DNA of 64,000 nucleotides from Ulvibacter algarum (lineage in GTDB: Bacteria; Bacteroidota; Bacteroidia; Flavobacteriales; Flavobacteriaceae), in the NCBI GenBank assembly GCA_947488905.1, contig CANLBJ010000001.1:310001-374000 (forward strand), written 5' to 3'. The notes beneath the pieces are model-generated. The model searched no databases. It had not been told where the DNA came from and saw only the letters and a list, made by a program, of their open reading frames with translations. Of this stretch, positions 1,086 through 62,731 are shown piece by piece (position 1 is the stretch's first letter; the number at the start of each line of letters is the position of its first letter). Position numbers and translations under genes: made by a program.

Positions 1086-1931
1086 TTAAGAGCCTTTTTT
1101 GAAGCAATAAATTAGAGAAGAATACTCTTTTGTACGTTTTGCCTTAATGTTAGATTTAAAACCAATCCAAAAAGCTTTTAATGAAAATGAAGCTCCCGTT
1201 TTATATTTTTCTGAAAGTAGACTTACATAAAAAGAATCAAACAACATGGGTTTGGTTTTTACAAGTTTTAAATTCTTCGGAAATATTCTTTTCATTGAAT
1301 CTTGAGAAAAATGCCAAAGATGTCTTGGCACATCAAAAGCTGCCCAGTACTCTTTATAATAATTTGCATCAAAAGATTTATAGTTAGGAACTGCAATAAT
1401 TAAATGTCCAGTATCATTTAAAAGTGACTCTAGTTTTTGGCAAGTTTCTTCTAAATTAGGAATGTGTTCTAAGACATGCCAAAGCGTAATTACATCATAT
1501 TTTTTACCAGCTACATTTTCAATTTCTTCTAGTAAATTAATTCCTTTTTTCTCAGCGAGATTTCTAGCTTGCTTGTTTACTTCAATTCCAGAAACCGTCC
1601 AGTCATTTTGTTTTGCAACATTTAAAAAATCTCCTGTTCCAGCTCCAATATCTAATAAAGACCCTTCACTTTTATTTAATTCTGAAATGAGCTTTACTTT
1701 GTTTTTAAGTGAATACGTTTTTACAGTTTGGTACAAAAAAGCAAATAATCCTTTCTTCTTATCTGTGTGTGAAATGTAATCTTCAGATTCATAATAGGAG
1801 GGAAGAGATGCTGCAGAAGGTTGTGGAGTTGTGATTAACATTTCTCTTTCTGCATCGTATTTCAATGTAAAAGACTCCCCAGAAACTAGGAAGTCTTTTA
1901 CGGTAATATCTACTTGTTTTTGTTCTTTCAA
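1086..1931 (-). CDS. class I SAM-dependent methyltransferase
   Basis: Probable methyltransferase of 281 residues. Motif I (LLDIGAGTG, residues 92-100) and the acidic end of strand 2 (GIEVN, Glu117) form the SAM pocket, and WHVLEHIPNL (151-160) is the motif typical of Methyltransf_11/23 type enzymes. The N-terminal 60 residues (YYESEDYISH) resemble the leader seen in flavobacterial methyltransferases placed near mnmG. The substrate cannot be told from the sequence; small molecules or cell-surface glycans are possible. Convergent with holB, and upstream of it lies a short spacer with a degenerate palindromic repeat. One copy of the CTTCGGAAAT motif lies inside the gene (1275-1284), read as Phe-Pro-Lys. 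Confidence 0.8.
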   Translation of the reverse strand: MKEQKQVDITVKDFLVSGESFTLKYDAEREMLITTPQPSAASLPSYYESEDYISHTDKKKGLFAFLYQTVKTYSLKNKVKLISELNKSEGSLLDIGAGTGDFLNVAKQNDWTVSGIEVNKQARNLAEKKGINLLEEIENVAGKKYDVITLWHVLEHIPNLEETCQKLESLLNDTGHLIIAVPNYKSFDANYYKEYWAAFDVPRHLWHFSQDSMKRIFPKNLKLVKTKPMLFDSFYVSLLSEKYKTGASFSLKAFWIGFKSNIKAKRTKEYSSLIYCFKKGS

Positions 1932-1968
1932 TTTTTGGTAATGTTATTATAGATTACTATGTCCATTA

Positions 1969-1981
1969 GAGTGCAGTCAAA
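1969..1981 (+). repeat. copy of the GAGYGCAGTCRA intergenic repeat
   Basis: GAGTGCAGTCAAA matches the core repeated at 21777, 21813 (inverted) and 26991. A degraded partner, CTGAGCGTAGCC, follows near 2030. It lies in the spacer between two minus-strand genes. Confidence 0.45.
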
Positions 1982-2097
1982 AACTTTCACGCATTAACAA
2001 AGTAGGTCTCAATCTTGGTTTATACTGAGCGTAGCCTTAGTACTCAACCGGACACAGTTCTAATAATTAAAATTATCTAAAAGGAATATTACTATTT

Positions 2098-2113
2098 CGT
2101 TCCACGTGAAACA
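2098..2113. other. parS: parS-like centromere site 1
   Basis: CGTTCCACGTGAAACA differs from the widely conserved parS consensus (TGTTtCACGTGAAACA) at the first base and at the fifth. It lies just past the stop codon of mnmG. ParB bound at parS organises the origin region for segregation by ParA and SMC. A second, better copy lies at the other end of the same gene. Confidence 0.75.
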
Positions 2114-2118
2114 ACTTT

Positions 2119-3990: not shown

Positions 3991-3998
3991 ATTGTAAT

Positions 3999-4014
3999 TG
4001 TTCCACGTGAAACA
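3999..4014. other. parS: parS-like centromere site 2
   Basis: TGTTCCACGTGAAACA fits the parS consensus TGTTNCACGTGAAACA exactly (N is C here). It lies in the 5' leader of mnmG, between the predicted promoter and the start codon, so ParB binding could also affect mnmG transcription. That regulatory role is inference. Confidence 0.85.
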
Positions 4015-4071
4015 TTATAGAAAAATCATCTAGTTTAAAGAATATCTTTATTTCGATTAAATTTCAGCCCG

Positions 4072-4079
4072 CAAAGATA
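4072..4079 (-). promoter_or_regulatory. predicted mnmG promoter, -7 element
   Basis: Read on the minus strand this is TATCTTTG, a perfect match to the Bacteroidota -7 consensus TAnnTTTG. It is about 80 bases before the mnmG ATG. No clear -33 TTG was found at the usual distance. Confidence 0.5.
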
Positions 4080-4134
4080 CTTAAATATCTCTATTTCAGT
4101 GAGTTAAAAATGTATTTTATTGATTTTAAGCGCT

Positions 4135-8136: not shown

Positions 8137-8146
8137 CTTCGGAAAT
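8137..8146 (+). repeat. CTTCGGAAAT motif copy
   Basis: Exact copy of the over-represented 10-mer. Here the flanks also allow a 6-bp stem closed by a UUCG loop (TATTTC/GAAATA), but most other copies lack that stem. It pairs in inverted orientation with the copy at 8199. Confidence 0.8.
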
Positions 8147-8198: not shown

Positions 8199-8208
8199 AT
8201 TTCCGAAG
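8199..8208 (-). repeat. CTTCGGAAAT motif copy, inverted
   Basis: ATTTCCGAAG on the plus strand. It lies 52 bases from the plus-strand copy in the same spacer and is the only close opposed intergenic pair in the window. Confidence 0.8.
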
Positions 8209-10713: not shown

Positions 10714-11502
10714 GTGAACATTAAATATCCTTTTGATCCTGTTTTAAAACATCATTTACTAATTGCGTTAGGTCTAGCAATATGGATTTTTCTATTTCTG
10801 GCCCTTACTGAGCCATTAGACACAAATGAGTTTGTAGGCGTTGAGAAGCTTCTTTATCTTCCTATTTATGGTATTGCTGGCGCTATTGCATATTTATTAG
10901 TTTTACCACTACAGGGTGTTATTTACAAGAAAAATAAAGAAAAATGGACCTTATTAAGTGAAGTCACCTTTGGACTTTGTATGTTTTTTCTTGGACTCAT
11001 TCTATCTAGGTGCGTATATCTCTACGTTATAGTCCCGGGAGCAACAAACCCATACTCATTAGGTTATTTTTTATCAGCTATTTACATTCCTGCTATTCTT
11101 ACCATATTTCCTATTATCGCAATAGGTCGTTGGTCTTTTGGTCGTTATTTTGAAAAGAAAATTGAGGACCAAAAAATAGAGATACAAGGTGAGGGTACTT
11201 ACGAAGGTCTTAGGCTGGTATTAAATGATTTAATTGCTGTCAAGTCTGACGATAATTATATTGAGGTTTCTTATTTAAATAATGGCACCCTCAAAAAACA
11301 ATTAATACGTAACAAGCTTTCTAAAGTTGAGGAAGCTATTCCAGAACTTTTAAGAACCCATCGTTCTTATTTAATTAACCCAGATCACTTTCAACAATTT
11401 AAAATGGAAAGTGGAAAATTATCTGTATTTCTTACTTCGGAAATAGTAATACCCGTGTCTAAAACCTACACAGAAAAAGTAAAAGGCACATTTCAGAACT
11501 AA
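10714..11502 (+). CDS. membrane-anchored LytTR-family transcriptional regulator
   Basis: 262-residue protein with a GTG start. Four membrane helices occupy roughly residues 15-33, 45-66, 88-112 and 128-150. A C-terminal LytTR DNA-binding domain follows at about 165-260, with the typical VKSDDNYIEV, LRTHRSYLINP and VSKTY segments. There is no receiver domain, so this is not a two-component response regulator but a membrane-tethered regulator of the kind common in Bacteroidota; the signal is unknown. Downstream of it are three 9-base direct repeats at LytTR-like spacing, placed before the next gene, which is therefore a candidate target. One CTTCGGAAAT copy lies in the coding region at 11435, read as Ser-Glu-Ile. 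Confidence 0.85.
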   Translation: MNIKYPFDPVLKHHLLIALGLAIWIFLFLALTEPLDTNEFVGVEKLLYLPIYGIAGAIAYLLVLPLQGVIYKKNKEKWTLLSEVTFGLCMFFLGLILSRCVYLYVIVPGATNPYSLGYFLSAIYIPAILTIFPIIAIGRWSFGRYFEKKIEDQKIEIQGEGTYEGLRLVLNDLIAVKSDDNYIEVSYLNNGTLKKQLIRNKLSKVEEAIPELLRTHRSYLINPDHFQQFKMESGKLSVFLTSEIVIPVSKTYTEKVKGTFQN

Positions 11503-15228: not shown

Positions 15229-16698
15229 TTACTCCTGGCTTGTTAAAATGAAGCGCAAATAATCAAACACTATGTCTGTTGTTAAGTTAACATTTCTTGT
15301 TTCGGAAATGCTAACGGCTTTACCACTATGTTTCTTTTTAAAGCTATCTGACATCCAAAACAAAAGAGCTGGGTTTGTTTGTTCTTTTGCATCACCGGCG
15401 TGAAGGTATTGCCCTTTTTCGCCTAAAGATTCCCCGTGATCAGAAACATAAAATACAACGGTTGGTACAGGGTTTTTCTTTGCTCGTTCTATAACCTCGT
15501 TTAAAAAGTAGTCTAAATATAAAATGGTATTGTCATAAGAGTTGACAATCTCTTCTGTTGTTAAAGACGGGATATATTTTGAGGTAATGACAGGGGTATA
15601 TTTTCTGAAATTTTCTGAATATCGATTCTCATAATACCAATGACTCCCCATCATATGTAGCGTGATAAGTTGGTTATTGTTTGTGCCTAATAAATTATCA
15701 AAAGCAGGTAACATTGCCTCGTCTAGTTCTTTATTAAAACTATATTCAGATTTATATTTATCTACTAAAATTACATGTTCATTTGTGTTAACAATAGGAG
15801 CAAAAGATTTTTCTAAAGTTTGGTTACCTATCCAAGTGGTTTCATATCCTGCTGCGTTAGCAACATCATAAATACTTGTGTAACTCTCTTTATCAACCTC
15901 TAGTTTTTTATCTGTTAATAACTGCGGGATACTAGCGCCAGTATAGGTATTACTAGTATAAATATTAGGGAAGCTAACAATATCTTGTTTTGATAACAAC
16001 GGTGTTGTATTTCTTGAATAGCTATTTAAACCCAAATGATCTGCACGCACGGTTTCTCCTAATACAAAAATAATAGTAAGACTATCTGTTTGTTTTGTAA
16101 CAACGGGCAGCGCTTTATTTAGCTGAAACTTTGGAGCGCTGTAATAATCTTCAACACCACTAAAAACATTGTACGGTAGCCTACTTTTAAGCGTGTTAAG
16201 GCGTTTCATTTCAGTAATAAAAAATAAAGCGATACAACCTGCTGCTAATACCCCAAACAAAAAGATAGATCTGCTTGTTTTAAGCCTGCTGTGCCACTTT
16301 ATAAAAAAAACAAGTACAAGTACTGCTGCAATAAGAAAAGCTGCATAAGGGACTGTTATAAGGTCTATAGCAATGTCTGGGGTAGTCTCAAAAACGGCTT
16401 GTATTAATCCTGGTGTTACAGAAATATCTTGTGTGTAGCCAAAAAATGAAAAACTACAGAAAAATAAAAACAGTCCAGAAAAAACGATACGGAAAATCCA
16501 TTTATATAAGCTTAATATATAGATGAATCCCGCTATTGTTGTTTGTAATAAAAATAAATGGCCTAGATAAACAAGAGTGTCTTTGCCTCCCTCAAGTGGT
16601 GTGTGATAATAAGAGGCACCTGTTATAAAAAATACAACAGCACTGTTTAATGCAATGTGAAAAAATATAAGATTCTTATTTCTTTTTAACCATTCCAT
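15229..16698 (-). CDS. sulfatase-fold membrane transferase (phosphoethanolamine transferase-like)
   Basis: 489 residues. Five N-terminal membrane helices (residues about 10-160) carry a large periplasmic alkaline-phosphatase-fold domain. The nucleophile region is GETVRADHLGLNSY with the following Thr-rich NTYTGASIP, and the metal site contains YVSDHGESLGEKGQYLHAGD. This is the layout of EptA/EptB/CptA enzymes, which move phosphoethanolamine onto lipid A or core sugars. A lipid A or surface glycan role is likely, but the exact acceptor cannot be told. Its start overlaps the stop of the upstream acyltransferase gene by 23 bases, so the two probably modify the same surface molecule (inference). 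Confidence 0.82.
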   Translation of the reverse strand: MEWLKRNKNLIFFHIALNSAVVFFITGASYYHTPLEGGKDTLVYLGHLFLLQTTIAGFIYILSLYKWIFRIVFSGLFLFFCSFSFFGYTQDISVTPGLIQAVFETTPDIAIDLITVPYAAFLIAAVLVLVFFIKWHSRLKTSRSIFLFGVLAAGCIALFFITEMKRLNTLKSRLPYNVFSGVEDYYSAPKFQLNKALPVVTKQTDSLTIIFVLGETVRADHLGLNSYSRNTTPLLSKQDIVSFPNIYTSNTYTGASIPQLLTDKKLEVDKESYTSIYDVANAAGYETTWIGNQTLEKSFAPIVNTNEHVILVDKYKSEYSFNKELDEAMLPAFDNLLGTNNNQLITLHMMGSHWYYENRYSENFRKYTPVITSKYIPSLTTEEIVNSYDNTILYLDYFLNEVIERAKKNPVPTVVFYVSDHGESLGEKGQYLHAGDAKEQTNPALLFWMSDSFKKKHSGKAVSISETRNVNLTTDIVFDYLRFILTSQE

Positions 16699-19549: not shown

Positions 19550-19559
19550 CTTCGGAAAT
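19550..19559 (+). repeat. CTTCGGAAAT motif copy
   Basis: Exact copy in the glnS/folB spacer, five bases from the predicted glnS -7 element (19564-19571). The DnaA-box-like word TTATTAACA also occurs in this spacer at 19484-19492. Confidence 0.8.
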
Positions 19560-21864: not shown

Positions 21865-24093
21865 CTACTCCTTAGGCCCCAACATCGTAAAGTCTAAATG
21901 CTTTCTTGCAAGATCTGCATTTTTCACTTTTACAATAACTTCATCACCAAGGGTATATTTTATGTGGTTTTTTCTACCCACTACTGCAAAATCTTCTTTA
22001 ATAAACTCATAGCTATCATCTTGCATGTCCTGAATACGCACCATTCCTTCACATTTATTAGAAACAATCTCTACATAGATTCCCCATTCTGTTACACCAC
22101 TTATTACACCTACAAACTCTTCATCTTGGTGATCTTTCATGTATTTGATTTGCATATACTTTATGCTTTCTCTTTCTGCTTTTGAAGCTAAGATTTCCAT
22201 ATCTGTGCAATGCTTACAGTTCTCCTCAAAAACATCTTCTTTTGCAGACTCTTTATTATCAAGGTATCGTTGCAATAGTCTGTGTACCATTACATCTGGG
22301 TACCTACGTATAGGTGATGTAAAGTGTGAGTAATAATCAAATGCAAGCCCGTAATGCCCTATATTATTTGTAGTATACACCGCTTTACTCATACTACGTA
22401 TGGCAAGTGTGTCTATTAAGTTTTGTTCTTTTTTACCTACCACATCACTTAATAATTGATTTAAAGATTGTGAAGTAGACTTCTTATCGCGGGTATCCAT
22501 TTTGTAACCAAACTGCTTTATCAAGTTTTCAAGAGCAGCTATCTTTTCATCATCCGGCTCATCGTGTACACGATATACAAAAGTCTTTTTAGGATTTTGT
22601 TTTCCTATAAAAGCAGCAACACTTCTGTTAGCAAGTAACATAAACTCTTCAATAAGTTTATTAGCGTCTTTACTCTCTTTAAAGTAAACACCCTCTGGAT
22701 TTGCTTCTTCGTCTAAAATGAATTTTACTTCCACTTTATCAAAAGAAATCGCTCCATTGTTCATTCTTGCCTTTCTAAGAATTTTTGCCAGACGATCCAT
22801 TTCTAAAATAGCTTTGGCAATTGGTTTTTCAACCTGGTACTCTTTATCGGTAATTGATATTTTAGAAGTTATTGTGGTATTTAATTTTGCTCCCTCCTTG
22901 ATATCATCTGGGTGGTTGTTTTCTATAATTAACTGCGCTTCTTCATAAGCAAAACGAGCGTCACTATACGTTACGGTTCTACCAAACCATTCTTTAACAA
23001 CTTCTGCATTTTTATCCATCTCAAACACGGCAGAAAAAGTATATTTCTCTTCGTGAGGTCTTAATGAACAAGCACCGTTACTTAAAATTTCTGGAAGCAT
23101 AGGTACAACTCTGTCAACTAAATAGACTGAGGTTGCACGCTCAAAAGCTTCATCATCAAGTATAGTACCTTCTTTAAGATAATGAGAGACATCTGCAATA
23201 TGAATTCCTATTTCATAATTACCATTTTCTAGTTCGGTAAATGATAAGGCATCATCAAAATCTTTAGCATCTTTTGGGTCAATGGTAAAGGTTAAATCTT
23301 TACGCATATCGCGACGTTTTGCAATTTCCGAAGCATGTATTTTAGTGTCAATCTTATTTGCATACTCCTCAACTTCTGCCGGGAACTCATACGGTAAACC
23401 GTATTGTGCAAGAATACTATGTATTTCTGTATTATGCTCGCCTGGCATACCAAGGCTTTTAATCACGTTACCATTAGGCGAATCTGCTTTTTCTGGCCAG
23501 TCTATAATCTCTACAAGAACCCGTTCTCCTTGTTGTGCTCCGTTAATATTGCTTTTATGTACAAAGATATCTGTGTACATTTTATGATCGTTCATCTCTA
23601 CAAAGGCAAACCTGTCTTGAATGTTAATAGTACCAACAAATTCTGTTTTTTTACGCTCTATTATTTTAGTGATTTCGCCTTCGCTTTTACCACCTCTTTT
23701 GCGTTTATATACATACACCTCTACGGTATCACCGTTAAGTGCTTTGTTAAGATTTTTGTTTTTAACTAGAATATCATCTTCTAGTTCGTCAACAATAATA
23801 TACCCTTGACCTCTACCCGCAATATCTACACGACCGGTGTAATAGTTTTGGTTTGGGGTTAAAATATATTTACCTCTATCTATTTCTTGTATTTCTTTAG
23901 ACCCTTGAAGTTCTTTTAAAATTTTTATAATTTGATTACGACTATTTGCATCATCAAGATCTAATAATGCCGCAATCTGTTTATAATTAAAAGGTTTTGA
24001 GTGGTCTTTACGTAGTATTGCTATTATCTTATCTGATAGCCCGTTAATCGTTTTTGATTTTTTTCTACCAAACGATTGTTTTTTTCTTTTCAT
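21865..24093 (-). CDS. rnr: ribonuclease R
   Basis: 3'-5' exoribonuclease of the RNB family that degrades structured RNA. 742 residues from the ATG at 24091-24093. An in-frame ATG at 24139-24141 would add 16 residues and cannot be excluded. The order is an N-terminal winged-helix (about 10-75), two cold-shock-type domains, the RNB catalytic core with the Asp cluster in DPKDAKDFDDALSF, YCHFTSPIRRYPD-like SHFTSPIRRYPDVMVHR, and a C-terminal S1 domain (FVGVISGVTEWGIYVE). One CTTCGGAAAT copy (23324-23333) lies inside. Divergent from rpiB across the candidate origin. Confidence 0.95.
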   Translation of the reverse strand: MKRKKQSFGRKKSKTINGLSDKIIAILRKDHSKPFNYKQIAALLDLDDANSRNQIIKILKELQGSKEIQEIDRGKYILTPNQNYYTGRVDIAGRGQGYIIVDELEDDILVKNKNLNKALNGDTVEVYVYKRKRGGKSEGEITKIIERKKTEFVGTINIQDRFAFVEMNDHKMYTDIFVHKSNINGAQQGERVLVEIIDWPEKADSPNGNVIKSLGMPGEHNTEIHSILAQYGLPYEFPAEVEEYANKIDTKIHASEIAKRRDMRKDLTFTIDPKDAKDFDDALSFTELENGNYEIGIHIADVSHYLKEGTILDDEAFERATSVYLVDRVVPMLPEILSNGACSLRPHEEKYTFSAVFEMDKNAEVVKEWFGRTVTYSDARFAYEEAQLIIENNHPDDIKEGAKLNTTITSKISITDKEYQVEKPIAKAILEMDRLAKILRKARMNNGAISFDKVEVKFILDEEANPEGVYFKESKDANKLIEEFMLLANRSVAAFIGKQNPKKTFVYRVHDEPDDEKIAALENLIKQFGYKMDTRDKKSTSQSLNQLLSDVVGKKEQNLIDTLAIRSMSKAVYTTNNIGHYGLAFDYYSHFTSPIRRYPDVMVHRLLQRYLDNKESAKEDVFEENCKHCTDMEILASKAERESIKYMQIKYMKDHQDEEFVGVISGVTEWGIYVEIVSNKCEGMVRIQDMQDDSYEFIKEDFAVVGRKNHIKYTLGDEVIVKVKNADLARKHLDFTMLGPKE

Positions 24094-24269
24094 ATATGTG
24101 CCCACCGTTGTGGGATATTTTTTCTGGTGCTCGTTAATCATGAGCTACCTATTTAATTTATTTTTCTTAAAAGTAATTGATTTTTTTTGTTCGGGACCGA
24201 ACTAGAATTCACGTGAAGAAGATTTAAAATAAGTGTTATTCTATTTAAATCAATCTATTAAGACTGGTG

Positions 24270-24364: not shown

Positions 24365-24374
24365 CTTCGGAAAT
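24365..24374 (+). repeat. CTTCGGAAAT motif copy
   Basis: Exact copy inside the candidate origin spacer. Confidence 0.8.
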
Positions 24375-25420: not shown

Positions 25421-25430
25421 CTTCGGAAAT
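25421..25430 (+). repeat. CTTCGGAAAT motif copy
   Basis: Exact copy in the 102-base spacer between rpiB and the metal exporter gene. Confidence 0.8.
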
Positions 25431-30284: not shown

Positions 30285-30294
30285 ATTTCCGAAG
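30285..30294 (-). repeat. CTTCGGAAAT motif copy
   Basis: ATTTCCGAAG on the plus strand, in the 242-base spacer between the S41 protease and rnpA. The flanks form a 5-bp stem with a UUCG loop. A degraded GAGYGCAGTCRA-type repeat (CACGCTGAGAATGTCAAAG) lies near 30199 in the same spacer. Confidence 0.8.
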
Positions 30295-32655: not shown

Positions 32656-32704
32656 AATTTCTGAAATTTTAAATATTTGATACATCGCCTAAACGATTAA
32701 AAGT

Positions 32705-43368: not shown

Positions 43369-45789
43369 ATGCGCATTATTCTTTGTCTATTCTTTCTGTT
43401 TACTTCTTTTATAGGATTTAGTCAGCAAGCTGAAATTTCTGGTCGTGTTGTTGACACCACTGGAGATTTTATTTCTTTTGCTACAGTTCTTGTTTCTGAA
43501 ATACCAACAAAAGAAACCCCAGAAGGAACCTATCTTTCTGGCACGACAACAGATGACTTCGGAAATTTTAAAATAGAAACGCCTACTGCTTCATCTTACA
43601 TTTTAACGGTTAGTTATTTAGGTTTTGCTTTAAAAAAAATTGAAGTAACCGCCCCAAAAATGCTAGGCAATATAACACTAGAGGAATCTGCAGAGAGTCT
43701 TGACCAAACAGTAATCATTGCCAAAAGACCCACTATAAAAAAAACAGCAGGAAAACTGGTTTTTAATGTGGAGAACACATCCATGTCAGTTGGGAGCACT
43801 TTCGATTTATTAAAAAAAACACCAGGTGTTATCGTCGTTGGTGAAGAAATAAAAATAAAATATAGCGCTCCTGTCATTTACATTAACAATAAGCGTGTTT
43901 ATCTATCGCAGTCTGAAGTGGTTTCGCTACTTCAAAATACAGATGCATCAAATATTAAAAATGTTGAGGTAATCACAAATCCTTCGGCAAAATATGATGG
44001 TGCAACAGGTACTGTATTAAACATTAATACTTCTAAGGCTATTTCTATTGGCTATAAAGGTTCTGTAAACGCAAATTACACACAAGGCGTATTTCCGAAG
44101 TATAGATTAGGAACATCACATTTTTATAAAAACAACTGGTTAAACTTCTACGGAAGCTATAGTTTTAACAGGCGAAAAAACTTTAAAGAAGACGAAAATT
44201 TCATTCGTTATTTTGAGCCAGATGGGAGTACTAACTCTATATGGAATAGTGATTTTAATCGTACAACTCGTGCTAATGCTCACCAAGGTAACTTAGTAGC
44301 AGATTTTACAATAGACAAAAAGCAATCTATAAGTCTTGCAACTACATTTTCAGTAAACCCAAATGAAACATATGATAATAAGGGGTTTACTACTATTAGA
44401 AATGCACAAAGCATAGTTGACTCTACTTTTACAACCATTAGTGATGTGGCAAGTGATACACATACTATTTCTATAAACGGAGATTATAAGATCTTGTTAG
44501 ATGAAGAAAATTCTAACCTAACTGCCGCTGTAAACTACACAGATTATAATAATGACCGTTTACAAAATGTTGCAACTGCATATAATAATCCTGCAGGATT
44601 ATTACTTAACAGCAATAGCTTTTCTACAGATGCTAACCAAGGGACTAAAATCTATACCGCACAAGTAGATTTAGCTCACGGGTTATGGGACGGAACAGTA
44701 CAAATAGGAACAAAATATAGTTACATAGACAGCAATAGTAAACTAGATTTTTTTGATACAGACATTGCGCCTAATGAGTTCAACGAAGCATTATCTGATG
44801 ATTTTAATTATTTAGAAAAAATTTATGCCTCATATATAAACTTTGAAAAAGGTTTTGGAAAATTTGATGTGAATGCAGGTATGCGTGTAGAATATACTGA
44901 TATTGACGGTAGGTCAAGATCTTTAGGAAAAACTAACACTAATAACTACTATAATTTTTTCCCAAGGTTTTCTGGGCAATATACATTTAATGATAAGCAC
45001 AGCGCAGGGTTTGCTTATACGAGAAGTATAACTAGACCTGGTTACCAAAACCTAAATCCATTTAAATATTTTATAAATGAAAATAATTTTGATGAGGGGA
45101 ACCCTAACTTAGTACCTGCCATTTCAGATAAGATTGCATTTAATTATTCTTATAATTACGTTTGGGCTTTTGAGGCGTATTATGAAAAGATTGACAACTC
45201 ATTAAACACTTTAAGGTTTCAGGACAATGTAAATAGAGAATTGCGTAATAGTGAGGCAAATTTATTAAACGATTTTCAATATAGTTTTGATATTCAATAT
45301 ACACCTAGTAAACTCCCAAGTTGGTTATATTTTTATGTTATCACCTCTACGTTTTATTTAGAAAACGAGTTTTTAGCATTAGAGAGCGAGCAAAGAGCCT
45401 CGAGAAATAATACAGCAGGATTTTACGGGTATGTATATTCAAATTTTACGCTATCTAAAGACAGAACCTTTACAGCAGATTTGAGTTCTCAATACATTTC
45501 AAACTTTATACTTGCATCTGCAGACTATGACAATGTATTTTTCTTAAACCTATCTTTCAGAAAATCTTTCTGGAACAAGCAAGCAAGTATTACTGCCGGC
45601 GTTGAAGACATCTTTAACAGAGCGTCTAATAGCCCCGTAATTTCTAGATATCTAAACCAAGATAACTTTTATTCTGCACAGGTAGAAACCAGAGTCTTCA
45701 CGTTAGGTTTTAAATACAACTTCGGAAATGCCCGTCTAAGGGATAATAATAAGTCTATAGATACTGATGAGAAAGATAGGCTCAACTAG
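43369..45789 (+). CDS. outer-membrane TonB-receptor-like beta-barrel protein
   Basis: 806 residues. A signal peptide (MRIILCLFFLFTSFIGFSQQ) is followed by a carboxypeptidase regulatory-like domain (about 22-110). A plug-like region (about 125-225, DLLKKTPGVIVVGEEIKI...YDGATGTVLNI) leads into a 22-strand-type barrel of the outer_membrane_beta-barrel family. This pattern is common in TonB-dependent uptake systems of Bacteroidota, but no SusD partner is adjacent, and the substrate is unknown. Three CTTCGGAAAT copies lie inside (43557, 44091, 45720) and a fourth just after it, the densest cluster in the window. Confidence 0.88.
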   Translation: MRIILCLFFLFTSFIGFSQQAEISGRVVDTTGDFISFATVLVSEIPTKETPEGTYLSGTTTDDFGNFKIETPTASSYILTVSYLGFALKKIEVTAPKMLGNITLEESAESLDQTVIIAKRPTIKKTAGKLVFNVENTSMSVGSTFDLLKKTPGVIVVGEEIKIKYSAPVIYINNKRVYLSQSEVVSLLQNTDASNIKNVEVITNPSAKYDGATGTVLNINTSKAISIGYKGSVNANYTQGVFPKYRLGTSHFYKNNWLNFYGSYSFNRRKNFKEDENFIRYFEPDGSTNSIWNSDFNRTTRANAHQGNLVADFTIDKKQSISLATTFSVNPNETYDNKGFTTIRNAQSIVDSTFTTISDVASDTHTISINGDYKILLDEENSNLTAAVNYTDYNNDRLQNVATAYNNPAGLLLNSNSFSTDANQGTKIYTAQVDLAHGLWDGTVQIGTKYSYIDSNSKLDFFDTDIAPNEFNEALSDDFNYLEKIYASYINFEKGFGKFDVNAGMRVEYTDIDGRSRSLGKTNTNNYYNFFPRFSGQYTFNDKHSAGFAYTRSITRPGYQNLNPFKYFINENNFDEGNPNLVPAISDKIAFNYSYNYVWAFEAYYEKIDNSLNTLRFQDNVNRELRNSEANLLNDFQYSFDIQYTPSKLPSWLYFYVITSTFYLENEFLALESEQRASRNNTAGFYGYVYSNFTLSKDRTFTADLSSQYISNFILASADYDNVFFLNLSFRKSFWNKQASITAGVEDIFNRASNSPVISRYLNQDNFYSAQVETRVFTLGFKYNFGNARLRDNNKSIDTDEKDRLN
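43557..43566 (+). repeat. CTTCGGAAAT motif copy
   Basis: Exact copy in the barrel gene, encoding Phe-Gly-Asn. Confidence 0.8.
44091..44100 (-). repeat. CTTCGGAAAT motif copy
   Basis: Exact inverted copy in the same gene, read as Phe-Pro-Lys in the sense strand. Confidence 0.8.
45720..45729 (+). repeat. CTTCGGAAAT motif copy
   Basis: Exact copy near the 3' end of the barrel gene, Phe-Gly-Asn again. Confidence 0.8.
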
Positions 45790-45842: not shown

Positions 45843-45852
45843 CTTCGGAAAT
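45843..45852 (+). repeat. CTTCGGAAAT motif copy
   Basis: Exact copy in the spacer before dusB, 123 bases after the previous copy. Confidence 0.8.
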
Positions 45853-46930: not shown

Positions 46931-48126
46931 TTAATAAGTTTTTCGCTCACTCTGCTTGAAGATATTTTTGCAGCTATAATACCTAGAACAGTAATTGTAA
47001 CTAAAACAATCACTACATTTTTAAACTCAAGACTTACTGGATAAGGAAGACCCGGTGCTATGTTTAGTAAATTAAATTGAAGCTGTGCCGCTATAACTAT
47101 TACTCCGAGCACAACTCCTACAATACCACCAAAAACGGTCATTAAGACACCTTGGTAAAAGAAGACACTTCTTATTTCTTTTATAGTAGCTCCCATATTA
47201 AAAAGCGTCTTAATATTAGACCTCTTGTCTAGAACCATCATTATAATAGAACCTACCACATTAAATAGGGCAATAATAAGTATTAAGGTAAAAATAAAAT
47301 ATACAGCAAGATTTTCTGCGTTAAGCATTTTATAAAGAGCATCGTTTTGCTGTATACGGGTTTTAATAATCACCTTATTATTAAAAGCCTCATTAAGAGC
47401 AGCAACAACATTCTCTTCTTTGGCGTTGTCCTTTAATTTTATTTCTAGAGCAGAAACCTTTGTGCTATCTAGTGATAAAAGATCACGTGCAAAACCTATA
47501 TCGCTAAATACATATTTACTGTTTAAGTCTTCATTTACATTATAGATACCACCTATTACCGCGCGAGAATAAGTAAAAGCTTTGCTTGGGTCTAGTATTT
47601 GTCCCTTACCAGGTTTTGGCACACTTAATTTAAGCAAATTGCCGTAATCTCTGGTTCCTGTAGATAATTTTGATGCCATACCTAGCCCTATAACCACTTC
47701 GGCCTTATTAGGCACTAACCAAGAGTCATAATAGAGTATACTATCAATGGGGTTCACGTTTCCGTAGTTAATATCAACACCTTTAATAATTGCAAGATGA
47801 CTTTTCCCTTTATACTGCGCATAGACACGCTCTTCTATTACTTCTGAAATAGCTGCGATGTCTTCAATCTTTAAAATTTCAGAAGAAAGGGCGTCATCAA
47901 GTGTGATTGTTTTACCCTCTGCAGGATAAACTTTAATGTCACTATCAAAAAAATTAGAAAACTGAAGGCTAAACTCTTTAAGACCACCAAAACCAGAAAG
48001 CACAATAAAAAGCGCCATTGCACCCACGACAACTCCTGTTGCCGCGATACCGGTTATAATGTTTATTGCATTATTACTGCTCTTTGTAAAAAGATATCTT
48101 TTAGCAATGTAGAGCGAGAAACTCAC
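46927..48126 (-). CDS. LolC/LolE-type ABC transporter permease
   Basis: 399 residues with four membrane helices: one at the N-terminus (about 20-45) and three at about 270-295, 320-350 and 365-388. A large periplasmic loop of the MacB-like type (about 46-265) lies between them, the layout of lipoprotein-releasing permeases. No ATPase gene (LolD) is beside it. It starts 1 base after the rbfA stop, so it is co-transcribed with rbfA. Role in lipoprotein transport to the outer membrane is a family inference; other FtsX-type exporters are possible. Confidence 0.85.
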   Translation of the reverse strand: MSFSLYIAKRYLFTKSSNNAINIITGIAATGVVVGAMALFIVLSGFGGLKEFSLQFSNFFDSDIKVYPAEGKTITLDDALSSEILKIEDIAAISEVIEERVYAQYKGKSHLAIIKGVDINYGNVNPIDSILYYDSWLVPNKAEVVIGLGMASKLSTGTRDYGNLLKLSVPKPGKGQILDPSKAFTYSRAVIGGIYNVNEDLNSKYVFSDIGFARDLLSLDSTKVSALEIKLKDNAKEENVVAALNEAFNNKVIIKTRIQQNDALYKMLNAENLAVYFIFTLILIIALFNVVGSIIMMVLDKRSNIKTLFNMGATIKEIRSVFFYQGVLMTVFGGIVGVVLGVIVIAAQLQFNLLNIAPGLPYPVSLEFKNVVIVLVTITVLGIIAAKISSSRVSEKLIN

Positions 48127-55891: not shown

Positions 55892-58800
55892 TTAATTCAC
55901 TAATAGCTTTTGTACTTGCGTAACTCCATCATTAGATTTTAAATAAACCATATATATACCAGCACTTAATTTTGAAACATCTACCGCGTGGTTTGTTGTA
56001 TCTGTTACAGATTCATCTATTAACAACTTGCCAGTAATATTATACAGTTTTAAAGAATAGGCCTCAGTAGCGTTTACTGCAGTTATTGTAAACAGATCAT
56101 CTGTAGGGTTAGGGTGAAGAGAGAATAGCACATTAGACGCACTATCTACTCCTAGAACCGCATCATTTCTAAAACTATAACGAATAGATTCTCCAAACCA
56201 TCTTTCTAAAGATGTGATAGTTGTTCCATCATAGTTCTTTAGTATGATAGATCCATTACCGTGATTAGAAGGCCAGTTATTCATACCATCGCCTCCACTA
56301 TCTAGAACAACAAGTTCGTAACACCCCGGATCAAGATTTATTAAATCACTATAAGTTGTATTTGCGCTATCAAAATCACGCTCAAAAACTATATCACCGT
56401 TACTTGTATCATAAACAGCATAGCTATTTTCATAAGAACGAGTGTTAGTCGTAAACTCTATAATCATTTGCTGGTCATGAACAGGTGCAGCCTCAAATTG
56501 TGATGTAAGTGTATTGTTGTGTTCATATTCATCACCTTGACCATTAGGGTTGCTTATACTCACGTTAAAATCTGTTACACCGTCATAATAATCGTCCATC
56601 GTTATTGAAGGTAATGTTACCACCTCTTCTTCCAGAAAATCAAGAACCCCATTCCAAGTGTATGTATAGCTATCTCCACCCGATACACCATAAGTTATAT
56701 CTAATGTGGTCATTGTCGTTTCTCCAGTGTTTTTAATCTTAACAATTGGCTCTCCACAAATAGGATTAAACCTTGAGTTTAATTTAAAGATATTAGGCGC
56801 AATAATTTCTTCTAGTGAAGCATCGTTTGTAAAGTTTGGAGTGCCATATTCTACTAAGAAAATTTCAGTAACATAATTACCATATGGGTCGTGTTCTATA
56901 TTATAATCCACGTCTACAGTAGTGTCTGTGCCTACATTGATAAAAGGAGTAAGATCTAGATTTTGAACGGTAGCAGGTTCTCCAGGACACCATCCTGCTC
57001 TATCATACATCCAAGTTCCACCTTGAGGGAATAAAGGGTTTTCTCCACATTCTTGCATGATTTCCCAGCTGTATTGTTCTGTACCGTTTACAAGCACGCT
57101 GTGGGTGTTATTACAAAATTCTCCACAATTGGCACCATTACCAAAACCGTGACCAGTTAAGGTAGTTTTTAATGTAAAATTCTCTGCAGTTGGATCTAGC
57201 GGTACCGTCGTATTAACAACTATATCATCAAAATTATCTAAGTTATAATTTCCAGAATATACGTTTTGAATCTTTACTAAATCTCTAGGAGGTGTGCCTA
57301 CTTTAAACACCACTTTCATATCTAATAATTCTTGAAAGTTACCTGCTCTTATATGCACATTATCGCCTTGAAATAAGTGTTGAAAATCTGTTACATCAAA
57401 TATCCAAGTCCAGCCGTCATCACCTAGAGAGAGCCCATTTCCGTAGGGAGTAATATAGCGCCCTATCTCCCACGGTATTGTTATCTCTTCTCCTGCTGTG
57501 GTTGTGTTGTACTCTATTTGTGCTAATGTAAGCGTAACATCTGGGGCAACAGGTGAAGAACTAACTACGTTTAAATCTGCATCATAGACAAAGTTGTTCT
57601 CGTATGTTGGGTTTACGTATAGTGTTTCGTCTAGAACCGGGATTTCTCCAGCCATAGTTTGTACGTATTTTTCTACCATCACTTTTCCCTTCGGAAATGC
57701 ATCTTCAACCAAGACTTGGCTTATAGTAGAAGTAGATGTATTGCGATTAAACTTAACATCTGGACGCTGTGTTCCCGGCGTAAAATTCTTAATATGTGCG
57801 CCATTATAACTTCTCTTTTGAGGTACACCATACATTTTAGTTAACTGAGATGAAATAACTTCTGGTGTTTCATAAGCAGCAGTAACTTCGTCAAATTTAT
57901 AATTTACCTTTAGGTCTGCATAGTCTGGGTGAGTAGCATCTACATCTTTATGCATCCAGGCAGCAATTGTAGCGGCGTCAAGTTCTTTAGACCAAACCTG
58001 AAAATCATCTAATTTCCCGTCATAAAAACGATCTGAGTTGCGATCTCCTTGACCTAGTGGGAATAAATTAATAGCGCCAATAGGACGAGTAAGTCCTGTA
58101 CCAGTTTGTAGCAACACACCATTAAGGTACATATTCATTACACCAGTCACTGCGTTTTTAGTAAACGCCCAGTGATTCCATGTATCTTTATATTGATCTT
58201 CAGTTAATGCAATATTTATACGGTCGTATCCAGTATTATCTCCAGCATCCCAATATACGCTTTGGTCACTCCATGGAAGGTGAACATTTAATACTCTATT
58301 GCCATCTGCATCTATTGCATCAAAAACACTATCGTTTTGTGGTTGTTCTTCATTACCGTTTGCCCAGAATGAAATTGTGATCTCATCTTGAATTGTCCCA
58401 AGGTTAGTCGTTGTTACATTTATTTTATCAGGCCCATTAAAATTGAAATAAGAATCTGTTTCACTTGCAGTGCTTGAACAGTCCCAAGCGTAGTTACTAC
58501 CATTTAATACTATTTGATCTTCACCTTCAATACCCACAAAAGAGATATCTACAATAATATTTGAGGCATTATCCCAGATAAAGTTGTTTGTAAAGTCTAG
58601 CTGTTGCCATCCTGTACCAGTGAACTCTGTGTTTTTAGAATATACCTCAGTAAAGCCATCTAATTCAACGGTTTCAGTTAATTCATTTTCTGAAGTAGCT
58701 TTTAATCTAATCTTTAGGTTTTGCATTTCTCCTCCATTTGTTAGGACATTAAATTGCATTCCGGTTAAATTTCCAGCAGTGACTCCAGCTGCAGACAACT

Positions 58801-59380: not shown

Positions 59381-60514
59381 ATGAGTTATTCATACTGGGA
59401 AAACAAAACGTGGTTTAGAAATATTGATTATGCTATAATAGGTAGCGGTATAGTAGGACTTTCTTGTGCATTACAATTAAGAGAATCTCACCCCAAAGCT
59501 AAGATTGTGATTTTTGAACGCGGAATGTTACCTAGTGGAGCTAGCACTAAAAATGCAGGGTTTGCTTGTTTTGGTAGTCTTTCAGAAATTATAGACGATC
59601 TTAAAACACATACACAAGATGAGGTCTTGGCACTTGTTAAAGAACGTGTTGAAGGATTAAAGTTATTGCGCAATACATTAGGTGATAACACAATAGATTA
59701 TCAGCAAAAAGGAGGCTATGAGTTATTTACAAAAAAAGACACATTGCTTTATAAAGAATGCGTGGAGCAACTACCCATAGTTAATAACCTTTTAAAACCT
59801 ATTTTTAAAGAAGACGTCTTTTCTGTTATTCAAGATTCTTTTCACTTCGGAAATATTAAAAAAAATTTAATAGTCAATAAATTTGAAGGGCAAATAGATA
59901 CTGGTAAGATGATGCGAGCGCTTCTTAAAAAAGCTGCAGAAAAAGACATTCTCATTCTTAACACCACCGAAGTAAAAGACATACAACAAAAAGATAAGGG
60001 TGTAAATCTTACTATTTCAGAAATAGGAAATGTAACCGTAAAAAATGTTTGCATTGCTACAAATGGTTTTGCAAAACAATTTTTAGATAAAGACGTACAA
60101 CCCGCAAGAGCTCAAGTTTTAGTAACACACCCTATAGAAAATCTAAAAATAAAAGGAACTTTTCATCTTGACAGAGGGTATTATTATTTTAGAAACATAG
60201 ACAATCGCATTCTTTTTGGTGGTGGGCGTAACCTTGATTTTAAAGGTGAGGCAACCACAAAAATGGAAGTAACACAACAAATACAACAAGAACTGGAGCG
60301 TATTTTAAAAACAGTAATATTACCTAATACGCCTTTTACAATAGATCAAAATTGGAGCGGGATTATGGGAGTAGGCAATCAAAAGAAGCCTATTGTTCAA
60401 GCGGTTTCAAAAAATGTTTTTTGTGGAGTAAGGTTAGGCGGTATGGGTGTTGCCATAGGTAGCGTTATTGGCAAAAATTTGGCTATACTTGCAAGTGAGC
60501 ACATCTCAGAATAA
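59381..60514 (+). CDS. FAD-dependent oxidoreductase, D-amino-acid oxidase family
   Basis: 377 residues. The N-terminal Rossmann motif IIGSGIVGLSCALQLRESHP is followed by VIFERGMLPSGASTKNAGFAC, typical of DAO-type glycine/sarcosine oxidase-like enzymes. The C-terminal FAD contact is WSGIMGVGNQKKP and GVRLGGMGVAIG. No signal peptide; cytoplasmic or membrane-associated. The substrate is not assignable. It is followed after 30 bases by the Gre-like gene and is divergent from the PNGase-like gene. A CTTCGGAAAT copy lies inside at 59845, reading Phe-Gly-Asn. Confidence 0.87.
   Translation: MSYSYWENKTWFRNIDYAIIGSGIVGLSCALQLRESHPKAKIVIFERGMLPSGASTKNAGFACFGSLSEIIDDLKTHTQDEVLALVKERVEGLKLLRNTLGDNTIDYQQKGGYELFTKKDTLLYKECVEQLPIVNNLLKPIFKEDVFSVIQDSFHFGNIKKNLIVNKFEGQIDTGKMMRALLKKAAEKDILILNTTEVKDIQQKDKGVNLTISEIGNVTVKNVCIATNGFAKQFLDKDVQPARAQVLVTHPIENLKIKGTFHLDRGYYYFRNIDNRILFGGGRNLDFKGEATTKMEVTQQIQQELERILKTVILPNTPFTIDQNWSGIMGVGNQKKPIVQAVSKNVFCGVRLGGMGVAIGSVIGKNLAILASEHISE
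59845..59854 (+). repeat. CTTCGGAAAT motif copy
   Basis: Exact copy in the FAD oxidoreductase gene, in the sense direction. Confidence 0.8.
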
Positions 60515-60544
60515 TGTAATTTTACTTTTTTATATTCCATCTTT

Positions 60545-61003
60545 ATGACAGTACTTGAGATTAAAACCAGCTTACTTGATTCTTGTAAAGTGAGTGTGCA
60601 AAAACGTTTTGAGAAGGTAAACAAAACAATTGCAGATATAGTAGATGCTCTTGACGGTGAGTCTAAAAGTTCTGCGGGCGATAAGCATGAAACTGGAAGA
60701 GCGATGCTGCAAATAGATCGTGAAAATGCTGGAAAGCAACTTCAAGAATTAGAAAATCTAGACCGCTTACTACCTAAAATAGATATAAAGACGACCACAG
60801 ATTATGCAAGGCTAGGAAGTCTTGTTTATACTAATAACGGTAATTTTTTTATAAGCATTTCGCTTGGTGTCGTTATTGTTGGCAAAACCACTTATTATTG
60901 TGTAGCGTTGCAAGCACCTATAGGGGCACAACTTTCTGGAAAGAAAAAAGACGATTGTTTTACCTTTAATGGTAAAGAATATAAAGTTACGAGCGTAAAG
61001 TAG
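60545..61003 (+). CDS. GreA/GreB-like protein
   Basis: 152 residues. The N-terminal half is a helical hairpin (CKVSVQKRFEKVNKTIADIVDALDG, then DKHETGRAMLQIDRENAGKQLQELENLDRLL) with SSAGDKHETG at the turn. The C-terminal half has an FKBP-like Gre fold ending in ALQAPIGAQLSGKKKDDCFTFNGKEYKV, matching the Gre C-terminal SPxGxALLGxxxGD motif. In databases this group is often mislabelled 3-oxoacyl-ACP synthase. Likely binds the RNA polymerase secondary channel; the acidic tip residues of GreA are not obvious, so cleavage stimulation is uncertain. Convergent with the DUF4328 gene. Confidence 0.75.
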   Translation: MTVLEIKTSLLDSCKVSVQKRFEKVNKTIADIVDALDGESKSSAGDKHETGRAMLQIDRENAGKQLQELENLDRLLPKIDIKTTTDYARLGSLVYTNNGNFFISISLGVVIVGKTTYYCVALQAPIGAQLSGKKKDDCFTFNGKEYKVTSVK

Positions 61004-61004
61004 A

Positions 61005-61742
61005 TTACTCTTCTTCTAAGAGTTTTTGGTTAGATGCCATTAAGGCATTATCTGTGTTGATTTTATGTACCGTAATCTTTACTTCTTTTTCTTTTTCAGA
61101 CATTTTAATAATCATCATTATTGTTACAAGGGCAGCAAGAATATCAAGTACATCTGCTATGAGAAAAGCCCTAGTAGCTACAATTAGCTCATCTATTGTC
61201 TCTTCTTCTATATAATTTAAAATCAAATTAGCTATATTTCTGAGTATAAAAAATGCCCACCAAATGCCAATAAACCAACCAATTGCAGCAGGCAGATACC
61301 CTGGCTTTGTAAGATTTAAAAAACGATTCATCTTTTCATCTATTTCTGTGGCCATTGTATAGGGATACCACCAACTAATGATAGGTATTACAAAGCTCCA
61401 AATTGCCCAGCTATCTTCATGATTTAGTCTTAAATCTGAGATACGCCCAGCATTTACGTAACTTCTTCTAAACCACATAATAAATAGAAAGGCAAGAATT
61501 AAAGTGACTACTTTCTGTGAAATATAAATAATATCTTGTCTTAAGTCGTTGCTGTCTAATTGCTCATCTGTGTAGTTGCCCCCCGCATTCATTCTCTCTA
61601 ATAACTCCAACTGCATGTAACCGGACACTAGTGCAATAAGCGTTATACCTATTAATATCCAAAAAGTGATGATCGTATTTTTTGCACGCTGTTCATTGTC
61701 TGTTAAACGAATGGGCGCAGTGTAATTTGTGTTGGTTGGCAT
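61005..61742 (-). CDS. DUF4328 family membrane protein
   Basis: 245 residues with six hydrophobic segments (about 24-43, 75-92, 110-125, 135-155, 165-180 and 195-220). The DUF4328 pattern FRRSYVNAGRI, WAIWSFVIPIISWWYPY and the motif around ATEIDEKMN is clear. Function unknown. It follows the ABC ATPase gene after 14 bases on the same strand, so it may be its membrane partner or simply co-transcribed (inference). It ends 2 bases from the convergent Gre-like gene. Confidence 0.8.
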   Translation of the reverse strand: MPTNTNYTAPIRLTDNEQRAKNTIITFWILIGITLIALVSGYMQLELLERMNAGGNYTDEQLDSNDLRQDIIYISQKVVTLILAFLFIMWFRRSYVNAGRISDLRLNHEDSWAIWSFVIPIISWWYPYTMATEIDEKMNRFLNLTKPGYLPAAIGWFIGIWWAFFILRNIANLILNYIEEETIDELIVATRAFLIADVLDILAALVTIMMIIKMSEKEKEVKITVHKINTDNALMASNQKLLEEE

Positions 61743-61756
61743 TTATAAGGTTTAAT

Positions 61757-62731
61757 TTATCGCAAAGTAAGATACAGTTTTGTTGCGGGTGTCAAAATAG
61801 AGTGATGATAAAAATAAATAGTATTGTCATCATCTTTAGCTTGAACTAAATAGTTATTTCCTTGATAAAAGGTAGTAATTACAGTTACTTCAAGCGCAGT
61901 TTTTACTTCGGAAATGCGCAATTGATGAGGTAGCAGTATGCGATTTTTAATAGCTGGTTTTGATGTTTTGGCATTTTCGCCGTAAGGCAATAATGCAGCA
62001 TCTATAACAGATACTTCACCAAAAAAGCTCGCTTGATAGGTGTTTTCTAGATTTTCATAAATATCTTTTGGAGTATCTAAACGTTCTTGTTTACCATCAT
62101 GTAATAACAACATACGGTCTGTAAAACTTAACGCTTCTTCACTGTCATGAGTAGCAATAATACACATGATGTTTTGACTGCGTGTATAGCTAAAAAATGA
62201 ACGGCGGAGGGTGTTTTTTAAGAAGGTGTCTATGCTACTAAAGGGTTCATCTAGTAACAACACCTCTGGTTTCTGTGCTAGCGCTTTTGCGATGGCAACT
62301 CTTTGTTTTTGACCACCACTAAGGTTTTTAACTTTAACGTGTTTAAAAGCGGCCAAATGCACAACTGCTAGCAACTCATCAACACGAGCATCATCTTTTG
62401 CCCTGTCATTTCTATCTAGGTGAGATGCTATGTTTTCTGCCACAGAAATAAAGGGCATAATATCTAGTTCTTGAGCGACTAGCTTCATAAAGGGTTCGCC
62501 AGGAATAAGATTGTGAGATGGGCCTAATAGCCTTTCTTTATTATAATGAATAGTCCCATTATCTAATGTAAACAACCCATAAACAAGGTGTAATAAAGTA
62601 GATTTTCCTGAGCCACTGCCGCCCAAAACAGAGAGGTGTTCTCCTTTTTTAATAGAGAATGACACATCTTTTAATACGGGAGTGTCTTCGGGATTTGGAT
62701 ATTTAAATGATTGTATTTGTACGTCTAGCAT
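61757..62731 (-). CDS. ABC transporter ATP-binding protein
   Basis: 324 residues from the ATG at 62729-62731. The in-frame ATG at 62827 would start inside the structured element and adds a leader without family likeness. Walker A is GGSGSGKSTLL, the Q-loop is near MKLVAQELD, the signature is NLSGGQKQRVAIAKAL and Walker B is VLLLDEPFSSID, with the switch His in IIATHDSEEAL. The C-terminal 100 residues resemble a TOBE-like regulatory fold as in Fe3+/spermidine/molybdate importers, so it is CysA/PotA-like. No permease or binding protein is nearby except the DUF4328 protein. A CTTCGGAAAT copy lies at 61906. Confidence 0.88.
   Translation of the reverse strand: MLDVQIQSFKYPNPEDTPVLKDVSFSIKKGEHLSVLGGSGSGKSTLLHLVYGLFTLDNGTIHYNKERLLGPSHNLIPGEPFMKLVAQELDIMPFISVAENIASHLDRNDRAKDDARVDELLAVVHLAAFKHVKVKNLSGGQKQRVAIAKALAQKPEVLLLDEPFSSIDTFLKNTLRRSFFSYTRSQNIMCIIATHDSEEALSFTDRMLLLHDGKQERLDTPKDIYENLENTYQASFFGEVSVIDAALLPYGENAKTSKPAIKNRILLPHQLRISEVKTALEVTVITTFYQGNNYLVQAKDDDNTIYFYHHSILTPATKLYLTLR
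61906..61915 (+). repeat. CTTCGGAAAT motif copy
   Basis: Exact copy in the ABC ATPase gene, antisense to it, read as Ile-Ser-Glu. Confidence 0.8.

Follow-up and report, generated by a model that had tools for sequence, protein, structure and literature searches.

Established DNA uptake sequences, in the portions of the literature consulted, are those of the Neisseriaceae and the Pasteurellaceae. The uptake signal sequence (USS) of the Pasteurellaceae consists, according to the excerpts available to us, of a 9-nucleotide core and two downstream AT-rich regions (PMC12616744), and in Haemophilus influenzae 59% of its copies are reported, in the excerpted text, to lie in genes, compared to a coding share of 84% (PMC2346458). 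Within the Flavobacteriaceae, Riemerella anatipestifer was the first competent member reported; as excerpted, it uses ComEC, DprA, ComF and RecA together with four unusual proteins, two of which, an adjacent outer-membrane protein and DUF5689 protein, are needed for transformation (PMC8459023). Riemerella columbina prefers its own DNA, and A-rich k-mers are offered in the available text as its putative DNA uptake sequence (DUS) (PMC7965970). Here we analyze a 64,000-nucleotide stretch (hereafter, the window) of a Patiriisocius-like flavobacterium labeled Ulvibacter algarum (contig CANLBJ010000001.1, positions 310,001 to 374,000), in which the 10-mer CTTCGGAAAT recurs far more often than expected, and we ask how this word compares with the systems described above.

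We read CTTCGGAAAT as the core of a DNA uptake sequence that works like the Pasteurellaceae USS, and we give this reading a probability of about 0.64. Like a Haemophilus-type USS, as excerpted, it has hundreds of copies, a short strict core, and looser AT-rich regions on one side, and it shares with the Pasteurellaceae signals described there the lack of a general orientation bias and some inverted pairs, with a dialect-like distribution among clades. Unlike those signals, its core is CTTCGGAAAT rather than AAGTGCGGT or ACAAGCGGT, its phylum is Bacteroidota, a T-rich stretch precedes the core, a third AT-rich stretch reaches to approximately +46, the spacing of the AT stretches is off helical turns, and the genome of the window has no PilC/T2SSF match. 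We do not count the word as a Pasteurellaceae USS itself, and its uptake function is putative. The Neisseriaceae DUS, with its receptor ComP, may resemble our motif in having a conserved inner core and dialects that follow clades; in the consulted portions it is described as a continuous motif of up to ∼13 nucleotides, unlike the element described here, and for the pilin machine to which ComP belongs the genome of the window gives no T2SSF match. The cyanobacterial highly iterated palindrome HIP1 is likewise a short, highly repeated chromosomal word (PMC4390886), although the excerpts describe a palindrome tied to methyltransferases, whereas CTTCGGAAAT is nonpalindromic and has long flanks. 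Among the matches listed in open-licence PubMed Central, as far as their text was available, the literature on uptake sequences of Flavobacteriaceae or Bacteroidetes did not describe the motif, and the matches listed for the bare 10-mer, which mostly concerned eukaryotic topics and were taken as primer matches, likewise held no motif description in the text seen.

Over-representation and anatomy of the element

The window holds 17 exact copies of CTTCGGAAAT, 12 on the plus strand and 5 on the minus strand, compared to a mean of 0.13 in dinucleotide shuffles, none of 100 of which reached that number, and a third-order Markov model places the word first among the window's 10-mers (17 versus 0.03 expected). 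Across the whole genome (G000; 3.55 Mb in 33 contigs), it occurs 605 times (297 forward and 308 reverse), while the control, CTTCGGAAAT read backwards, occurs 21 times (8 and 13). Under a fourth-order Markov model, CTTCGGAAAT leads all 10-mers in the 454 kb of contig 1 that include the window (90 versus 2.75) and likewise in 400 kb of Patiriisocius marinistellae KK4 (G008; 122 versus 3.81), a species assigned, along with P. marinus (G006), to the same genus as the genome of the window. As in known uptake sequences, a short word is therefore present in hundreds of copies, far above expectation. A first-pass annotation of the window had listed the 17 copies, all of which we recovered with their positions and strands, and had held that a frequency close to a Markov model, or confinement to one gene family, would speak against a functional motif. 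Neither applies: the frequencies above are far from expectation, and the window copies occupy ten open reading frames (ORFs) or places within ORFs as well as six spacers. In larger stretches the copies are spread across many ORFs and all frames, as seen without a family-by-family count. The two near copies and the seven spacer copies that the annotation had pointed out are also present, the former with one mismatch each (15300 and 38317) and the latter outside all listed ORFs of at least 90 amino acids (8137, 8199, 19550, 24365, 25421, 30285, and 45843). The copies and variants in the window are as follows.

1275..1284, plus strand: exact core, antisense in ORF 1086-1931(-)
8137..8146, plus strand: exact core, in the spacer of two divergent ORFs; forms an inward-facing pair with 8199, of which it is the left half
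8199..8208, minus strand: exact core, intergenic; right half of the pair with 8137, starts 62 bp apart
11435..11444, plus strand: exact core, sense in ORF 10714-11502(+)
19550..19559, plus strand: exact core, intergenic
23324..23333, minus strand: exact core, sense in ribonuclease R gene 21865-24141(-)
24365..24374, plus strand: exact core, intergenic
25421..25430, plus strand: exact core, intergenic
30285..30294, minus strand: exact core, intergenic
32605..32614, minus strand: exact core, sense, near the start of ORF 30826-32685(-), aminopeptidase-like (below the curated cut-off)
43557..43566, plus strand: exact core, sense in ORF 43369-45789(+)
44091..44100, minus strand: exact core, antisense in ORF 43369-45789(+)
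45720..45729, plus strand: exact core, sense, near the end of ORF 43369-45789(+)
45843..45852, plus strand: exact core, intergenic
57689..57698, plus strand: exact core, antisense in ORF 55892-59323(-), protein with a type IX secretion system (T9SS) sorting domain
59845..59854, plus strand: exact core, sense in ORF 59381-60514(+)
61906..61915, plus strand: exact core, antisense in ORF 61757-62827(-), ATP-binding cassette (ABC) transporter ATPase-like
15300..15309, plus strand: one-mismatch copy, position 1 changed, a rare class in 1.65 Mb; possibly decayed or chance
38317..38326, plus strand: one-mismatch copy, position 10 changed to C; A and C are tolerated there in 1.65 Mb
47841..47850, plus strand: position-5 variant, of a class with the same extended flanks
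47876..47885, minus strand: position-5 variant, same class
26297..26306, minus strand: position-5 variant, same class

The anatomy of the element was drawn from 404 exact copies in 454 kb of G000 and 1.2 Mb of G008 (1.65 Mb together). Single-base changes are rare in both genomes at core positions 1, 2, 4, 6, 8, and 9; at position 7 they are rare in G000, and G008 has 16 copies with C. Position 5 tolerates T or A, position 10 tolerates A or C, and position 3 is partly tolerant. A flank profile of the 309 copies with no neighbor within 200 bp, 206 of which lie fully inside genes, displays T at −9 to −2 upstream; downstream, T12-T13-A14-A15 is followed by a GC-richer dip at +17 to +19, then T20-T21, A at +22 to +25, and T28, a mild dip at +29 to +32, an AT-rich stretch at +37 to +46, and a further dip at +47 to +51. 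The main features appear separately in coding and noncoding copies. CTTCGGAAAT is thus the core of a directional element of ∼55 bp, T-rich before the core and with AT-rich stretches on one side, and, as in a USS, the AT-rich regions downstream are less conserved than the core. Flank weights trained on G008 separated G000 copies from control CTTC places with an area under the receiver operating characteristic curve (AUC) of 0.74 to 0.93. For coding and noncoding copies, respectively, the AUC was 0.80 and 0.85 for the upstream flank, 0.74 and 0.93 for +11 to +16, and 0.82 (P = 2.5e-15) and 0.86 for +17 to +47. Variants at position 5, of which the first 854 kb contain 60, have the same flanks as exact copies, and the motifs of G000 and G008 are nearly identical, with small differences at −20, +12, and +13 and in the tolerated variants.

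Two other words stood out in these stretches. TTTCTGAAAT / ATTTCAGAAA is over-represented in G000 C1:1-454000 (63 versus 5.5), also raised in G008 C1:1-400000, and mildly raised in the motif-poor G003 (8 versus 1.2 in 100 kb), with flanks partly like those of CTTCGGAAAT. The 12-mer GAGCGCAGTCGA, found in the window at ∼26991, recurs in 8 copies in G000 C1:1-454000 and 6 copies in G008 C1:1-1200000, mostly inside a self-complementary TCGAGCGCAGTCGA hairpin; it looks like a repetitive extragenic palindromic (REP)-type repeat and unrelated to CTTCGGAAAT.

Placement and turnover of the copies

A repeated word of this kind could arise, without any binding protein, as a by-product of codon usage, of codon-pair preferences, or of mutation bias: the contained 8-mer CTTCGGAA could represent a Ser-Glu or Phe-Gly codon context, and some related words, among them CTTCAGAA and TTCTGAAAT, are raised too. 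However, synonymous-codon shuffling removes nearly all in-gene copies, from 52 to 0.5 in 454 kb of G000 and from 184 to 4.8 in 1.2 Mb of G008, and the 8-mer in another genome of the family, G022, is similarly codon independent (80 versus 8.4). All six reading frames are raised in G000, G008, and, for the 8-mer, G022 (five of six in a small Ulvibacter sample of 21 copies), and the flank pattern, which extends to approximately +46, is common to coding and noncoding copies. We rejected codon usage as the cause on the shuffling result, and the by-product explanation as a whole is scarcely credible.

When genes were defined as ORFs predicted by a simple longest-ORF rule, 38 of 90 copies in G000 and 128 of 314 in G008 were intergenic (∼41%; 2 more in G008 straddle an ORF end), compared to intergenic shares of sequence of 12.8% and 11.4%. 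Genes hold the remaining 52 of 90 and 184 of 314 copies, or 58 to 59% against a coding fraction of 87 to 89%, a deficit like that excerpted for the H. influenzae USS. The copies therefore occur in genes whatever the frame, yet less often there than in spacers, as expected of an uptake sequence, and the first-pass annotation's claim of a DNA-level origin is supported by this placement together with the shuffling and frame results.

The intergenic share could also suggest a transcriptional element, whether a regulator site, a terminator, or an RNA UUCG hairpin. Eleven tight inverted pairs (2 in G000 and 9 in G008), with 14 to 16 bases between cores, form palindromes with shared tails and could fold into hairpins, and TTT directly before the core is slightly more frequent than independence predicts (0.213 versus 0.160). 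Against this, most copies lie in genes, in sense as well as antisense orientation (35 of 53 are sense in G000, as are 34 of 70 in the first 400 kb of G008), and the fourth stem base fails to follow (ATTT, 0.035 versus 0.056). There is no excess between convergent genes (4 versus 7.2 expected in G000 and 17 versus 18.9 in G008), nor any tie of copies to convergent gene ends or promoters in 454 kb of G000 and 1.2 Mb of G008. Of the tight pairs, six lie between divergent genes, four between codirectional genes, one in a gene, and none between convergent genes. An RNA tetraloop hairpin is unsupported, given the sense/antisense split and the ATTT deficit, as are intrinsic terminator repeats, given that neither tight pairs nor an excess of copies is found between convergent genes. 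A transcriptional role for the element is very unlikely.

Hundreds of copies in genes and spacers alike would also suit a recombination hotspot, which the first-pass annotation had named as a candidate, here of a Chi-like kind, or a polar translocation signal like the FtsK-orienting polar sequences (KOPS). Known Chi and KOPS sites are mostly strand biased and are not known to have 40-bp AT tails. The annotation had proposed checking whether the strands are used unequally near the origin. No such bias is seen in 1.2 Mb of G008, where the origin is marked by a GC-skew minimum (460 kb) and a parS-like site (433.6 kb): plus and minus copies number 72 and 59 to the left of the parS-like site and 99 and 84 to its right (Fisher P = 0.91). 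The word thus stands on both strands with no replication polarity, as the even split in G000 also indicates and as in an uptake sequence, and lacks in G008 the bias along the replication direction expected of a Chi site; both the hotspot and an FtsK-like polar site are disfavored and very unlikely.

Turnover was assessed with 279 reciprocal-best orthologue pairs between G000 and G008 (mean protein identity, 72%), setting aside 3 copies in G000 and 8 in G008 that could not be aligned. Six of 37 alignable in-gene copies of G000 are conserved in G008 (16%, versus 4.7% for random 10-mers of the same gene and frame), and 6 of 44 in the reverse direction. The copies favor diverged places, with at least five differences at 14 of 37 and 19 of 44, compared to 25% of controls. 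Copy turnover is high and retention slight, which is what one would expect if new copies kept arriving and were tolerated, with no need for any single one. The annotation had spoken of selection at the DNA level; the DNA level stands, but because most copies are not conserved in place, the "selection" may instead be molecular drive by biased uptake, not selection on each copy.

How the copies are spaced bears on a further explanation, that CTTCGGAAAT is the binding site of an abundant intracellular nucleoid or chromosome-organizing protein that wraps ∼55 bp, with the AT stretches as wrapping contacts. The one-sidedness of those stretches would agree with this, as would the wide and rather even spread: gaps above 200 bp vary somewhat less than they would at random (coefficients of variation, 0.77 and 0.88; P = 0.008 and 0.024 for G000 and G008, respectively), and gaps below 200 bp are mostly inward facing (32 of 41 in G008 and 5 of 8 in G000). 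On the other hand, we judged the combination of strict core positions with so little conservation in place to be unusual for an architectural site, copies do not cluster over 1.2 Mb around the G008 origin (19 to 38 per 100 kb; terminus region not covered), and presence and absence are graded between related genomes. We regard a nucleoid or segregation site as unlikely. Helical phasing of inward-facing pairs, suspected from the first close pairs, was unconvincing in the larger pair set and was dropped. The longest gap in G008, a copy-free 24 kb that looks by reading like a metal-resistance island, was not used as evidence of foreign DNA, since a mean gap of 3.8 kb multiplied by ln 314 gives ∼22 kb and such a gap is expected by chance.

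Distribution among genomes and competence genes

Within the genus (11 genomes), five genomes carry the 10-mer: G008 (833 copies), G000 (605), G005 (474), G006 (345), and G009 (239, in an assembly that is 59% complete). Six small genus-mates (1.7 to 2.1 Mb, 77 to 90% complete) are near control, with 6 to 34 copies versus 9 to 18. Across the family, the 8-mer CTTCGGAA reaches or exceeds three times its control count in approximately 33 of 397 genomes, counted by eye, with the highest count in Ulvibacter antarcticus (G309; 2,678 versus 245), and many genomes are at or below control (for example, G020, 7 versus 54). Whether the 8-mer or the 10-mer is enriched varies by genus and clade: the 8-mer extends to the full 10-mer in 225 of 2,678 cases in G309, 345 of 1,251 in G314, 605 of 865 in G000, and 833 of 1,010 in G008, the share in G314, placed near Marinirhabdus in a GltX tree, being intermediate. 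The 8-mer genera have T at −2 and −3 in common with the 10-mer carriers, and we infer that their CTTCGGAA is the same element as CTTCGGAAAT.

For comparison of gene content, 30 carriers and 34 noncarriers were chosen by eye; six of the genomes at or above threefold were left out of the carriers (G091, G095, G289, G321, G399, and G413), which also include G005 (by its 10-mer count), G286 (2.4-fold), and G328 (2.97-fold). In the GltX tree, a single clade (Patiriisocius, Marinirhabdus, Ulvibacter, Aequorivita, Aureitalea, and relatives), which also includes noncarriers, takes in 22 of the 30 carriers; five lie near Salegentibacter/Salinimicrobium, two near Psychroserpens, and one near Zhouia. In 20-kb stretches of G132 and G328, near Salegentibacter in this tree, TTCAGCAA exceeds expectation by more than CTTCGGAA does, which may reflect a further dialect or an effect of codons. 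One pair in genus g50 differs in both motif and DUF5689: G286 has CTTCGGAA at 516 versus 219 and DUF5689 domains, and G063 has 91 versus 209 and none. At least 120 viral loci matching the extended motif held 2 further core copies in 0.99 Mb, as did at least 120 reversed-control loci, counts that say little, the hosts of the loci being unnamed. A separate, parS-like 16-mer, GTTCCACGTGGAAC, was seen at four sites, at approximately 2.4 to 6 kb, in each of nine Aquimarina loci (L120, L121, L125, L126, L128, L129, L137, L163, and L166), a few kilobases from gltX and with three of the sites within ∼90 bp; G008 has one full copy in 1.2 Mb.

Of the kinds of protein known from R. anatipestifer, G000 has the following, all outside the window: ComEC (C1:955559-956368), DprA (C1:408643-409263), and an outer-membrane protein (C1:175248-178109) adjoining a DUF5689 lipoprotein (C1:178144-180330). 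The outer-membrane protein carries a carboxypeptidase-regulatory domain, and the pair lies ∼4 kb from a protein that, by its sequence, we take to be RecA. From domains and adjacency, without alignment to the Riemerella proteins, we judged the pair to be probable counterparts of RA0C_RS04915 and RS04920. Unlike in Riemerella, where, in the text available, only A-rich k-mers have been put forward and no uptake sequence is established, these genes accompany a candidate word, and the DUF5689 protein of G000 has two such domains. Two tandem domains also occur in G005, G314, and G145, and other carriers have one. Searches of the PDB with the DUF5689 and outer-membrane proteins gave no matches.

We considered the DUF5689 protein as the reader of the motif. 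A tree was made of 57 hits, with five under 150 bits dropped (G286, G153, G173, G083, and G150) and five motif-poor genus-mates added; 10 of the 34 noncarriers had no locus in the set, and G329 and G063 had no hit. Carriers cluster in this tree (7 changes versus 17.6 shuffled, 0 of 500), but they also cluster in the GltX tree (15 versus 24.9 changes, 0 of 500; a quick tree in which unscored named rows were counted as "no group"), so the clustering is no evidence for motif reading. The protein is in addition near universal, and we dropped it as a correlate of the motif; phylogeny does not support it as the reader.

A proposed uptake sequence with a possible separate reader

Several observations weigh against CTTCGGAAAT being an uptake sequence. 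In the literature searched, as far as its text was available, no carrier was found described as competent. DUF5689 is present in 62 of 64 genomes regardless of the motif, the carrier G329 lacks it, and the carrier G009, whose assembly is incomplete, has no ComEC match and, for DUF5689, just one match below the cut-off. The motifs of G000 and G008 are nearly identical but their DUF5689 proteins belong to different clades, and the six motif-poor genus-mates retain ComEC and DprA (6 of 6) and DUF5689 (5 of 6). The 8-mer genera have weaker flanks and no clear AT tail, and the 8-mer of G022 is not enriched in spacers (5 of 85). For AT content, the spectral peak lies at a spacing of 15 to 16 bp rather than 10.5, so helical phasing of the AT stretches is unsupported and was dropped. 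Finally, PilC/T2SSF had no match at an E value of 0.001 in G000, G005, G006, or G008, a search that did not extend to pilins, and it is equally rare in carriers (6 of 30) and noncarriers (6 of 34).

This last result also removes type IV pilus genes as a correlate of the motif. By the same PilC/T2SSF search, which did not include pilins, the reader does not appear to be a type IV (minor) pilin from a machine of the type IV pilus or type II secretion kind, as is shown for DUS and predicted for USS. Because PilC/T2SSF is unmatched and its occurrence is not tied to carriage, a type IV pilus reader is probably to be discounted, and a receptor of the type IV minor pilin kind is probably not available in G000.

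Of the three candidates that the first-pass annotation had put forward, a DNA uptake sequence nevertheless fits best, with its function putative. If CTTCGGAAAT acts in this way, a surface DNA-binding protein of the competence machine would contact the core, and the one-sided AT-rich stretches would let the duplex bend or melt on entering an outer-membrane pore. One strand would then pass ComEC, and DprA and RecA would insert it. We propose that copies accumulate, where proteins tolerate them, because fragments bearing the core would be taken up and recombined more often, a form of molecular drive. The natural competence of the species, a bias in its uptake, what the tails do, and which protein reads the signal are all matters that we infer. 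More tentatively, and at somewhat less than even odds, the Flavobacteriaceae may have independently evolved a USS-like, AT-tailed signal whose reader is a surface protein of a separate uptake machine (outer-membrane protein plus lipoprotein) rather than a type IV pilus, and that has split into genus dialects and been lost in small-genome relatives.

If this is true, sequence-specific DNA uptake can arise with unrelated machines, the signal being convergent in Bacteroidota that have no PilC/T2SSF match. The word would then give direct access to the uptake apparatus of flavobacteria, of which little is known, and could serve as a tag for laboratory transformation of these marine bacteria, and it would predict which of them are partners in DNA exchange.

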